64,000 nt of DNA from positions 1,178,001-1,242,000 of the forward strand of contig BQWY01000001.1 of assembly GCA_036984305.1 (NCBI GenBank), written 5' to 3'. The translations under genes and the position numbers were made by a program. The notes under the pieces were generated by a model that was not told where the DNA came from, ran no database searches, and worked only from the letters and a program-made list of their open reading frames with translations. Positions 20,281-24,626 of this stretch are shown here, in pieces. This stretch comes from Nitrospira sp. (GTDB lineage Bacteria > Nitrospirota > Nitrospiria > Nitrospirales > Nitrospiraceae). Within the stretch, counting starts at the first letter, position 1, and each line of letters opens with the position of its first letter.

Positions 20281-20499
20281 CTATCGTTTCCGACGCGGGG
20301 CGGAAACGGCAGGAGGGGGCGCGGGAACATAGAAGAATGTGCGGTTGAATGTGGTTGGACAGGTCAGGACCATATACACGGGTGCCATCTCGGTGGATGT
20401 TCGGAGACCGACCTTCCGGTTGTTGTTTGCCCAGCGCGAAAATACGGAATCCTGGATTGGTGCCCCGCTTCTATGGCCGTGTGATCCGTCGTGGTTCAT
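20281..20499 (-). CDS. Possible small protein, 72 residues
   Basis: ATG 20499 is preceded by GAGGG at 4-5 bases, a good ribosome binding site, and the frame runs 72 residues to a basic end (APRRKR). The middle (STEMAPVYMVLTCPTTFNRTFFYVPAPPPAV) has no recognisable domain or signal peptide. It is listed because of the ribosome binding site and the otherwise empty region; it may be spurious. Confidence 0.3.
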   Translation of the reverse strand: MNHDGSHGHRSGAPIQDSVFSRWANNNRKVGLRTSTEMAPVYMVLTCPTTFNRTFFYVPAPPPAVSAPRRKR

Positions 20500-20613
20500 T
20501 TGTCCCTCGATACTGTGAGCTGCCTGTCGCTGTTTGGCCTGACTCCAAACGGTATGATGTTAGGTATACCACCGGAAGTAAACTCTGTCCTAAGGCAATG
20601 GGAGGGAGACCCG

Positions 20614-20639
20614 CCCCCCCGTAGCAGGGACAGGGGGGG
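20614..20639. other. C7/G7 inverted repeat
   Basis: Seven C (20614-20620) and seven G (20633-20639) around a 12-base loop; could fold into a strong hairpin downstream of the DUF2330 stop's opposite side or stall polymerase. Position does not fit an intrinsic terminator for either neighbour. Confidence 0.3.
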
Positions 20640-20719
20640 AGCGCCTCGAAACCAAAGGTCGGCATGGATTCACCACGAGCAGCCTAAAGTTGCCGCCCCG
20701 ACACGGACAGCCGTCACCA

Positions 20720-22945
20720 TTACCGCCAAAGTCGTTGATACCATTTCAAATCGTCGGGGGCCGGTCCGTCGAGTTTCATGGAAACTCTGATGGCTTGGAT
20801 ATCCCACCCGGTGAGGTTGGCCAGGGTTTGCGCCTCCCGTTCATAGCGTGTGCGGAGGTGCTTCCGGTAGGCCGTTACAGCCGGGCAGTCATCCGTGCCC
20901 GTCCAAGGATGCCGGAGGATATATCGAGCTTGAAAGTTCGACCGGTCGGATGTTTCCTGAAACATCAGATCCTCGGGAAAATGCGCGGCGTCATACCGCA
21001 CGTGCAGCCTGGTCAGAAAGACGCGTCGTGCCTGGCTGAGAATGCCTTGCCCTCTGTGCCCGTCTTCGTCCTGCCAAAACACTCCGAGGCCACGTAGCTC
21101 TTCAGCGGAAAGAGGATTCGCCGCACAGGGATCGCACCAGTTCATATCCCAGGCATATTCCAGGAACACGCCCCGCTGGCGTTCGCGCTTCACCTGTTGC
21201 GCGAACATGTCGCGGTAGAAATCGCCGAACTGTTCCTTCACGTAGACGGGAATCTCCTGTGCGTCCGGCAACCGGATCGTTCGGTAGTTGGTGGTCTCCA
21301 CCCGACCTTGCCGGGTGAGAACGTAAATGAACAATTCCTGCGCGCCGTCGGCATTCACCGTGCCCAAACGAATGGGGAGCATGAACTTCCTCGATTCGAA
21401 GGCAATCTGCAGCGGCCGCAGGTGGGTGGCCCCGAGCTTTGCCTGCTCCGCGAGGTTCACTTTTGCGACAAAGAACTTCATGCCTTGCCTCACGTAGCTG
21501 TGGAGCACGGCGGAGGCACCCTGGGGGATCCGGTATCCGTTTTCGGTCAGCCACGTCTCAAGTCCCGCGCTTTCCTGGGCCGAGAGGATCAGGATATCGT
21601 ACTCACCGACCGTATAGCGCGCCTCAACCGTGACGCCCAGGGCACGGGCGCGTTCAGGAGCCGACGCCGAAGCCGGTAACCGATCTTCAAGCGCTCGCAT
21701 ACCCTTGAGCGACTCCATCTCGTAGCGCGTGCAGGGATTCGGGTCGAAATACTCGACCAAACGTGGAGCCGAATAGTCGGCCAGATGTTTCAGCGCGGCA
21801 GCATCGCCCACGTGGATCTGATCTTTCTCGATAAGCGTGGGGACGGGCACGACCATCGCAAACTCTTGTACGTCGCCGCGGAAATCGTTCGCCATCGTGA
21901 TCACGGTTTTGTTGTCGTGACGGGCGATGGCCACTTCGGAAGCTTTGTTGAACAGGCTGGTATCGGCCTTTGCCACGTAGAACCCGCAAAAGGCCGAGAC
22001 CTGGGAACTCCACGCAAAGAGGATGAGGACAAGGACGCCGAAGGGCAGAGACCGTTTCATGGAAACCTCCTTTGTCATGAGTGGGATGCGTGCCGCGTAC
22101 AGCGCAGCCATCGGCACCGGCGGCAGAGTGGGCGATGGAACCCTAAACCAGGAATAGCGAATTCCCGGTAGCAATCGATCAATGAGTGGGACGAATGGGG
22201 CCAGCGTGACCAGCGACCAGAGTAGGGCGCTCGGACGATACAGAGAGAACTGGATGGCATAAGCGCTGAGGGCCACGAATGCCCCATGGACCAGTCGGCC
22301 GGTCCGTGAATCAGGCGTTGTCTTGGGATCCGAGGTCATGAAGAAGGCAAACAGGAGCAACGCGCCTGTTTCGAGTTGGTGGAGGGGAATCGTGAGCGGA
22401 TCGCCCAGCCACAGGGCTCGCCCGAGCAGGATGAGGCTATACGTGGCGAGAAAGGCGAGGCTCGTATCGCTGCGTGTCGCACGCGCGACCACCATCGTCC
22501 CGAGGCAGGCCATCAGAAAGCCCACGATGGCTTCTCGCCCCCATTGCCCCGCGGAAACCCAGCCCAGTTCGGTGGCGACCATGATCGTCAACGCGAGCGC
22601 CGTGGGATTGAAGACATGCTTGCCGTTCCACCGGATGACAAACTTACTGACTATCGCAACAAACGCCGCCAGCGCGGCGACGGTGAGATCATTGGTTCTG
22701 AGCAACAGACACAGCGACAGTGATGAAATCAGGGCGCTCTTGGGATCGAATGACGGGAGGTTCGCTATGCGCGTGCCGGCGTACTGCGTCAGCAGCGCGG
22801 CGCCGATCGTGACGGCAATTTGCAGGATTGTAACGTCGAACCGCAGCCGAAGTAGGCCGTAGGTCAATAATATACTCAGGCTCGCGATCTGAAGTAGGCG
22901 AGGGTCGGAGCACTGCAGTGTGGTTTTCAGCCTGCTGAGCGTCAT
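20720..22945 (-). CDS. RnfD/NqrB-like membrane domain in one frame with secreted DUF2330 protein
   Basis: One uninterrupted frame of 741 codons from ATG 22945 (GAGG 6 bases upstream). Residues 1-285: polytopic membrane protein of the RnfD/NqrB type, with the family signature MTSDPKTTPDSRTG and FNPTALALT; no SGAT-type flavinylation motif is seen. Residues 296-741: a complete DUF2330 protein with its own signal peptide (MKRSLPFG, hydrophobic core, VSAFCGFY), then the conserved MANDFRGDVQEFAMVVPVP. The second part has its own ATG at 22060 with AAGGAGG 5 bases upstream, so it is almost surely also made as a separate 446-residue exported protein. Related pairs are known to me as separate adjacent genes; here the first lacks a stop. 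DUF2330 function is unknown; the pair suggests an envelope redox function. Confidence 0.85.
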   Translation of the reverse strand: MTLSRLKTTLQCSDPRLLQIASLSILLTYGLLRLRFDVTILQIAVTIGAALLTQYAGTRIANLPSFDPKSALISSLSLCLLLRTNDLTVAALAAFVAIVSKFVIRWNGKHVFNPTALALTIMVATELGWVSAGQWGREAIVGFLMACLGTMVVARATRSDTSLAFLATYSLILLGRALWLGDPLTIPLHQLETGALLLFAFFMTSDPKTTPDSRTGRLVHGAFVALSAYAIQFSLYRPSALLWSLVTLAPFVPLIDRLLPGIRYSWFRVPSPTLPPVPMAALYAARIPLMTKEVSMKRSLPFGVLVLILFAWSSQVSAFCGFYVAKADTSLFNKASEVAIARHDNKTVITMANDFRGDVQEFAMVVPVPTLIEKDQIHVGDAAALKHLADYSAPRLVEYFDPNPCTRYEMESLKGMRALEDRLPASASAPERARALGVTVEARYTVGEYDILILSAQESAGLETWLTENGYRIPQGASAVLHSYVRQGMKFFVAKVNLAEQAKLGATHLRPLQIAFESRKFMLPIRLGTVNADGAQELFIYVLTRQGRVETTNYRTIRLPDAQEIPVYVKEQFGDFYRDMFAQQVKRERQRGVFLEYAWDMNWCDPCAANPLSAEELRGLGVFWQDEDGHRGQGILSQARRVFLTRLHVRYDAAHFPEDLMFQETSDRSNFQARYILRHPWTGTDDCPAVTAYRKHLRTRYEREAQTLANLTGWDIQAIRVSMKLDGPAPDDLKWYQRLWR
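22061..22072 (-). promoter_or_regulatory. Internal ribosome binding site for DUF2330
   Basis: AAAGGAGG lies 5 bases before ATG 22060 on the minus strand, inside the longer reading frame. In the +1 frame a TGA falls just upstream (near 22077), exactly where a separate upstream gene would be expected to stop. Confidence 0.75.
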
Positions 22946-23251
22946 GCGGCACCTCGTGAGTTCGCCCCTCTCGGGTTCTACTCACGATATGCCGCTGGGC
23001 CTGAAATCCTTTCAGACCAAAATGCTTGAAATGGCCGCCATTGTTGTTGGCGCATCCATAACGTACTCAACGTATTGAAAAACATACGGCTCGCTAGGTG
23101 GTTTCATTGACGGGAACAGATTATGACCAGACGGTTTCCTCCTCGTGCTCCGATTTGTGGTTGCTTGTTTACATCCGTGAAGCCTCGGCATCGGTTTGCA
23201 CCGGATTCCCCTTATAAAAACGGGACACCAGGTTCAAACGCACTTGCGACT
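22946..23251. other. Intergenic region, 306 bases
   Basis: Leader/promoter space of the RnfD/DUF2330 gene. AT-richer than its surroundings around 23040-23100, with a direct repeat AACGTA-CTC-AACGTA (23060-23074). I see no convincing gene or complete promoter. Confidence 0.4.
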
Positions 23252-23890
23252 CTACTGCACCTTCTGGCGTACCATTCTGCCGCGGAAGTCCTCCGTGAGG
23301 TGATGCATCAGTGAGGGCACCATTTCCTTGCGGGGATTGCCGTCGTTCAACGAGGCATTCACGCCACGCTTGGTCGACACACTGACGGCGCCCACTTGCC
23401 GCTTCGCCCAGGCAGAGCCGCTCCACACACTTGCGCCCGACTTGGTTTCCATCAGCTTGGAGGAGATGTCGCCTCTCACTTCGGTGCGTACACCGCCCTG
23501 AAGCTTTGTGATGTCTGCGACGCGGATATCGGTCTTTGGTTCGGAATAGACGAGGTAGCCGATAAACACGGCGTTGACGTGATACTTCTTGCCGATCTTC
23601 GTCAATGCCTCCGCGTCCAACTGACTGGCCCCCACGGATTCCAGCACCGCCAGGCGGTTGCCCAGTTCGAGGAGGGGCGTGCCGGGCACGGCACCCTGGA
23701 TCTGCTCCTGGAATTGCTGTGTGGCGTAGGTGCTCATAGCGTGGTCAGAATTCGAATCGAATGTGACAACGCCGATCGTGCCGTAGGACTTCAGATCCAT
23801 GCGTGGCGGCACAGGGACAACGACCGTCTTGGAGCATCCCCACTGGGCGACCAGAAGTAGCAGCATGGCACATGCAGCATATCGTGGCAT
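23252..23890 (-). CDS. Lipoprotein, CsgG/GNA1162-like
   Basis: A 212-residue exported protein. Signal peptide with lipobox AQWGC (Cys about 19). The mature part begins with VVPVPPRMDLKSYGTIGVVTF and contains LAVLESVGASQLDAEALTKIGKKYHVNAVFIGYLVYSEPK, a pattern shared by CsgG/FlgO/GNA1162-type lipoproteins that assemble at the outer membrane. The second Met (ATG 23890) is chosen because AAGGAGG lies 8 bases upstream; for the first Met (23896) the gap is only 2 bases. It precedes the RnfD/DUF2330 gene on the same strand but 306 bases apart. Exact role unknown. Confidence 0.8.
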   Translation of the reverse strand: MPRYAACAMLLLLVAQWGCSKTVVVPVPPRMDLKSYGTIGVVTFDSNSDHAMSTYATQQFQEQIQGAVPGTPLLELGNRLAVLESVGASQLDAEALTKIGKKYHVNAVFIGYLVYSEPKTDIRVADITKLQGGVRTEVRGDISSKLMETKSGASVWSGSAWAKRQVGAVSVSTKRGVNASLNDGNPRKEMVPSLMHHLTEDFRGRMVRQKVQ

Positions 23891-24161: not shown

Positions 24162-24626
24162 ATGATGACGAAGGGAAATGCGAACGTGAAGCCGAGCCGC
24201 TCAGCCATTTCAGCAGAAGCCGTCAGTGCCATCGGGCGTGGGGATCTCGTTCACGCTATCAGGCTCACGCGTGAACAAACCGGCCTAGGACTGAAAGAGG
24301 CTAAAGAGCTTGTCGAGACACACGGCCGAGATGACACACACCCGAACACGTCGGGAGGGTCGAGTTCCGTTGTGGCGACGGAGGCGGTCGTCGCACTACA
24401 GAAGGGCAAGCTGATTGACGCGGTCAAGGCGTTCCGGGAGAGGAACGGCGGGGGCTTGAAGGATGCGAAAGAAGCGGTAGAACGATACCTTGACGAACAT
24501 CCGCTGACGAAACGGCAGTTCCGTGAAGCCGCCTTACGTGATCGAAGACGAATTGGTATGATCATCCTGGCCTTGCTCGTCGCTTTGGCTCTGGGCTATG
24601 TACTGGCGACCGGACAGCCAGGCTGA
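24162..24626 (+). CDS. Membrane-anchored protein with two L7/L12 C-terminal-like modules
   Basis: A 154-residue protein. Two short modules resemble the helical hairpin of ribosomal protein L7/L12 CTD: AIRLTREQTGLGLKEAKELVE (about residues 28-50) and AVKAFRERNGGGLKDAKEAVE (about 87-107). They are followed by a basic stretch and one C-terminal membrane helix (about 133-150). The L7/L12 NTD and hinge are absent, so this is not a ribosomal stalk protein; free-standing copies of this fold are known but poorly studied. AAGGAG sits 5 bases before ATG 24162 (8 before the next ATG). The C-terminal anchor would leave the modules in the cytoplasm. First of three small genes in one direction. Confidence 0.85.
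   Translation: MMTKGNANVKPSRSAISAEAVSAIGRGDLVHAIRLTREQTGLGLKEAKELVETHGRDDTHPNTSGGSSSVVATEAVVALQKGKLIDAVKAFRERNGGGLKDAKEAVERYLDEHPLTKRQFREAALRDRRRIGMIILALLVALALGYVLATGQPG

Follow-up and report, generated by a model that had tools for sequence, protein, structure and literature searches.

An RnfD-like membrane protein and a DUF2330 protein are encoded by one open frame, with no stop codon between them, in the Nitrospira sp. DNA analysed here. The same stop-less junction was found in 27 of 67 Nitrospiraceae genomes, across five genus codes, and the two proteins are encoded by separate genes in the other 40. We tentatively propose that the stop codon between these two proteins may be dispensable, and that in several bacterial groups the junction toggles between a translation-coupled ATGA gene pair and a polyprotein, with an internal start as a second route to the DUF2330 protein.

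One open frame holds an internal start followed by a signal peptide

Reading of the open frames in the window, i.e. the whole 64,000-nucleotide stretch that was analysed, gave a single frame of 741 codons at 20720-22945 on the minus strand. It runs from the RnfD-like membrane protein through a linker and an internal AAAGGAGG with ATG to a signal peptide and DUF2330. In the 741-residue chain, Pfam matched NQR2_RnfD_RnfE (PF03116) at residues 138-258 with 54.6 bits (cut-off 27.7) and DUF2330 (PF10092) at residues 317-662 with 284.6-286.6 bits (cut-off 24.7).

All parts of the frame given below are on the minus strand. A short Shine-Dalgarno (SD)-like GAGG, read from the sequence at 22952-22955, lies upstream of the start of the RnfD-like membrane domain (residues 1-266, 22148..22945), which was assigned from the PF03116 match and an AlphaFold model. 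The linker that follows (residues 267-295, 22061..22147) stays open in the RnfD frame through the internal SD sequence AAAGGAGG at 22066..22073 and reads ...MTKEVS. The internal ATG at 22058..22060 is codon 296 and begins a 446-residue DUF2330 precursor; it is overlapped by a remnant ATGA at 22057-22060. Residues 296-318 (21992..22060) form the signal peptide, whose predicted cut falls between VSA and FCG (MKRSLPFGVLVLILFAWSSQVSA followed by FCG in full). The mature DUF2330 protein, assigned from PF10092, an alignment and AlphaFold models, comprises residues 319-741 (20723..21991), and the stop of the frame is at 20720-20722.

A sequence-only reading of this DNA had reported the missing stop, a strong SD and ATG with a signal peptide inside the frame, and forms of 741 and 446 residues, and our analysis bears out each of these. 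The TGA that it had placed in the +1 frame near the start is also there: one overlaps the internal ATG in the ATGA, and another lies at 22075-22077.

An internal in-frame SD with ATG occurs in 4 of the 33 window ORFs of at least 250 residues (15,898 codons in all), and in the window only the RnfD/DUF2330 frame, 1 of those 4, has a signal-peptide-like stretch after it. Because this is the lone case of SD, ATG and signal peptide among the 33 ORFs, the layout is not attributable to chance within the window. An overlap between the stop of the first gene and the start of the second is absent in the window, where the RnfD frame has no stop. The region 20300-23300 of the window showed no promoter-like site. 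Elsewhere in the window, a 154-residue protein at 24162-24626 on the plus strand has a partial ribosomal L7/L12-like stretch, below the cut-off, and a hydrophobic C-terminal segment.

The junction recurs in many species

Among 175 Nitrospiraceae genomes searched, 82 had matches, and the junction was classified in the 67 in which both parts were readable. The other 15 (G018, G061, G068, G075, G087, G096, G102, G114, G131, G132, G135, G167, G187, G189 and G193) held fragments, contig ends or disrupted copies only; that of G096 (L155) was excluded as a disrupted copy with internal stops. Complete chromosomes among the fused genomes include those of Candidatus Nitrospira defluvii (L050, FP929003.1) and of L045 (CP092081.1).

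We then placed the fused or separate label on a gene tree of 73 rows from which the junction was left out (structure alignment A1 likewise held 73 sequences, a selection from the window and 122 listed references). The label changed 11 times, with at least 7 of the changes forced by starred branches, and some single fused rows may be assembly indels (the L004 difference lies in a run of A, and L089 has an ambiguous base). One clade of 16 genomes was wholly fused. A single ancestral fusion inherited by all was rejected when the 27 fused rows were held together (delta lnL 429, p-AU 3e-61).

Outside the Nitrospiraceae but within their class, L158 is fused; L159 and L160 are separate. The wider locus list consisted of the best 80 of 172 matches, in a ranking that favours fused loci, and both parts are present in 72 of these 80. 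Among these matches, the gene pair is present in several phyla, and 6 of the 38 non-Nitrospira loci with both parts are fused (L054, L055, L056, L058, L088 and L089), a fraction to be read with the same ranking in mind; an internal start with a signal peptide is present in each of the six. Comparison with orthologs, which the sequence-only reading had named as a check, thus points to a real and recurrent in-frame junction.

Short indels move the junction between phases

In the separate Nitrospiraceae genomes, the RnfD end overlaps the DUF2330 start as ATGA in 34 of 40 and as TGATG in 2, so that stop and start overlap in 36 of the 40; in 1 genome RnfD ends 37 nt upstream. In the remaining 3 (L009, L124 and L154), an SD-led start could no longer be recognised following an insertion, and the linker counts, which exclude them, cover 64 linkers. 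These three, all of one genus code, carry extra DNA beyond the RnfD tail and stop, with a gap of 203-413 nt between the RnfD core and mature DUF2330.

Of the 64 linkers, 27 were in the fused phase 0; phase 2 accounted for 36 and phase 1 for 1. Changes of linker length numbered at least 27, against 9 changes of phase, and in the 16-genome all-fused clade the linkers span 87-123 nt, every length a multiple of three. Linkers were open in the RnfD frame in 63 of 64 cases against 26.8 expected by base shuffling; as the 27 fused linkers are open by definition, the separate linkers were also counted alone, and 36 of 37 were open against 16.3 expected. The rarity of the third phase, together with the open linkers, indicates that the sequence translated after RnfD appears to matter.

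Within each of two pairs of sister loci, the junction differs by a single nucleotide. L004 has an extra A before the SD relative to L145, and L037 has an extra base between SD and ATG relative to L149. These differences show how the switch between fused and separate states happens, and the frameshift that the sequence-only reading had considered therefore holds as history.

Among the matches listed, an out-of-frame overlap of 47-148 nt was seen in 7 of the 38 non-Nitrospira loci. In these (L095, L100, L104, L106, L109, L113 and L115), the RnfD-like frame enters the signal peptide region of DUF2330 out of frame.

The internal initiation signal is conserved at the nucleotide level

In fused Nitrospiraceae, the Lys codon of the SD was AAG in 25/25 and the Glu codon GAG in 26/26, with 0 synonymous changes on the tree. 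For comparison, 18 conserved Lys columns showed a mean of 4.9 synonymous changes (minimum 1) and 23 Glu columns a mean of 5.0 (minimum 2). On branches outside the all-fused clade, part of this conservation goes back to periods when the genes were separate. Within that clade of 16 genomes, the SD codons again showed 0 changes, compared with 2.1 for Lys and 2.3 for Glu; here ordinary columns with zero change also occur (2/22 for Lys, 3/26 for Glu), so the contrast is weaker, yet it is free of any separate-state history. The start codon was ATG in 33/33 fused junctions examined.

The SD codons could drift if the long chain were the sole product. Since they have not changed in fused frames, internal initiation appears to be kept there. 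The suggestion of the sequence-only reading that fused and free DUF2330 forms are both made is thereby supported indirectly, through the conservation of SD and ATG, and we infer that both forms are synthesized.

Signal peptide and membrane topology

Read by eye, [AV]xA precedes the mature FCG start in 27/27 fused Nitrospiraceae. These frames thus have the layout of a polyprotein, in which a polytopic protein is followed, in one frame, by an internal signal peptide with an AxA-type site. The signal helix in the AlphaFold model is short (residues 300-312). K/R is absent at the signal peptide start in two fused genomes (L021 and L028) and also in four separate ones (L131, L143, L148 and L151).

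By hydropathy, K/R residues in the window protein number 16 on the membrane side that holds the RnfD C-terminus and 6 on the opposite side. The K/R distribution agreed with a cytoplasmic RnfD C-terminus in 4 of 6 sequences, was even in one and disagreed in one. The known topology of Rnf/NqrB proteins was also used for this placement, and the RnfD C-terminus is accordingly predicted to lie in the cytoplasm. Signal peptidase would then be expected to cleave the fused chain after VSA. That a signal peptide in mid-chain would route DUF2330 to the periplasm anyway, as had been argued from the sequence, fits this evidence and is the core of the mechanism that we favour, in which export is predicted.

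Proposed mechanism and alternative explanations

The sequences themselves establish how the junction is laid out and that it recurs, along with the indels, the conserved SD and the open linker. From these we consider it probable that the RnfD-like membrane protein and the secreted DUF2330 protein form a translation-coupled two-gene module whose phase drifts between ATGA and in-frame, both phases being tolerated by way of the internal signal peptide and yielding converging products. At the junction, the end of the first gene holds the SD and start codon of its partner, and in the usual Nitrospira form the ATGA (or TGATG) overlap would couple their translation. Such coupling would extend to almost every Nitrospiraceae genome whose junction was read. 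Single-nucleotide or short indels in the poorly constrained tail would bring the RnfD frame into the DUF2330 register, whereupon ribosomes completing RnfD would go on to the 741-residue chain while the kept SD and ATG would still begin the free 446-residue precursor. In chain or precursor, the signal peptide would direct DUF2330 through the membrane, with a possible cut by signal peptidase I after VSA. Because both routes carry the same signal peptide, they would converge on RnfD plus mature DUF2330. If the RnfD C-terminus is cytoplasmic, the in-frame phase would be harmless or useful; cells would tolerate it as well as ATGA, since DUF2330 would be exported by the internal signal peptide and could be released by signal peptidase. 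Signal peptidase would in effect stand in for the stop codon, so that the fused state could be gained and lost repeatedly.

The junction might instead be a functional covalent fusion, in which the uncut signal peptide serves as an extra transmembrane helix tethering DUF2330 to the RnfD-like protein. The frame kept over the 16-genome clade, with its linkers all in multiples of three, and the pairing of the two genes across phyla would suit such a fusion, but the hydrophobic core is short and is followed by [AV]xA in every fused Nitrospiraceae genome, close relatives manage without fusion, and the SD and ATG would need no conserving. We regard it as quite unlikely. A fusion selected for itself, for 1:1 stoichiometry or tethering, could exist and is not required by the coupled-module mechanism. 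Slightly less doubtful, though still unlikely in our judgement, is that nearly all DUF2330 comes from internal initiation and that read-through is a minor neutral by-product, the in-frame phase being inconsequential drift. This is consistent with the conserved SD and ATG in fused frames and with the repeated interchange of states; what speaks against it is that linkers stay open and that the third phase, in which RnfD has an out-of-frame tail, is nearly absent (the single phase 1 linker). It differs from the coupled-module mechanism mainly in proportions.

The sequence-only reading had raised loss of the stop by damage or error. Single-nucleotide indels could indeed create the layout, and the indel separating L004 from L145 is of this kind, but a sequencing artefact or decayed stop was rejected since the junction recurs in many species, in complete chromosomes and in other groups. 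It is therefore highly improbable that the window genome carries a decaying gene here or was misread in sequencing or assembly: many independent assemblies, FP929003.1 and CP092081.1 included, have the same junction, a whole clade is fused, and both domains are intact. Programmed -1 frameshifting at the ATGA form was considered as well, with a slippery site sought by sequence reading alone.

Relation to known systems

The fbcH gene of Bradyrhizobium encodes a cytochrome b/c1 polyprotein, with a polytopic part and a secreted-type part, whose internal signal sequence is cut by signal peptidase. By analogy, the RnfD/DUF2330 frame has a polytopic membrane protein first, an internal signal sequence next and a secreted-type protein last. 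Unlike in fbcH, the proteins are unrelated to those of the cytochrome, the internal SD and start are conserved, and the fused state varies among close relatives. In our literature search fbcH came up by gene name alone, in PMC3090418, and no description of the polyprotein was found. Translational coupling of gene pairs overlapping as ATGA or TGATG is described in earlier reports (Huber et al. 2019, PMC6728339; 2023, PMC10666635). The separate RnfD/DUF2330 orthologs with ATGA or TGATG resemble such pairs, whereas the window junction has no stop and the chain continues in frame. Frame-transition clusters from GeneTack are conserved gene pairs in which, according to PMC3711429, translational coupling and a frame transition can stand in for each other. 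RnfD/DUF2330 is likewise a conserved pair with interchangeable junction states; however, the frames in those clusters differ and a shift is involved, whereas the RnfD/DUF2330 junction requires no recoding and includes a signal peptide.

Our literature search found no direct precedent. As far as our searches show, the mix of fused and coupled states with a conserved internal start is new. It amounts to a replicated natural experiment on the role of the stop codon between a membrane and a secreted protein, because close relatives 1 nt apart at the junction are coupled or fused. It is also a warning for annotation pipelines, which must choose between one 741-residue protein and two, and it hints that some 'long' membrane proteins may conceal further stop-less junctions with internal signal peptides.

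The two proteins

The whole-chain AlphaFold model (mean pLDDT 81.4) has an RnfD fold in residues 1-280 and DUF2330 as a separate beta-rich domain. The RnfD-like part resembles RnfD/NqrB (PF03116) in fold (VIA Z 19.9-23.4) and in the sequence of its C-terminal half. The highest of these scores was with RnfD 8rbq_D (Z 23.4, 253 aligned, rmsd 5.2), and phmmer against the PDB matched 8ahx_D (E 1.1e-8). In contrast to RnfD/NqrB, it scored 45.2 bits against TIGR01946 (rnfD, NCBIfam), far below the cut-off of 207, and the motif [SDTA]GAT was found in none of 139 RnfD-like rows; the covalent-FMN threonine motif of RnfD is presumably SGAT. A scan of five neighbouring window ORFs gave no other Rnf subunit by name. 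At other loci, recurrent neighbours, where annotated, were mostly response regulators and kinases, and analysis of the annotated neighbours gave no recurrent partner of clear function.

Sequence comparison of the DUF2330 protein with PHROGs found no family, and with the PDB nothing (best E 0.98); our literature search found no paper naming DUF2330. Alignment A2 showed invariant cysteines, among them those of a CDPC (CxxC) motif that follows an almost invariant Trp, and this strict conservation suggests a periplasmic function in disulfide or redox chemistry. The predicted fold of DUF2330 comes closest to that of the baculovirus P35/P49 caspase inhibitors, a likeness that comes from the model and not from sequence. 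The DUF2330 model (pLDDT 72.7) matched P35 with VIA Z 10.3 (211 aligned, rmsd 4.1), the next unrelated entry scoring 7.1, and Foldseek gave E 3.9e-4 but TM 0.30/0.41 and rmsd 16.0. Mature residues 91-118 of DUF2330 form a hypervariable, low-confidence loop between invariant stretches.
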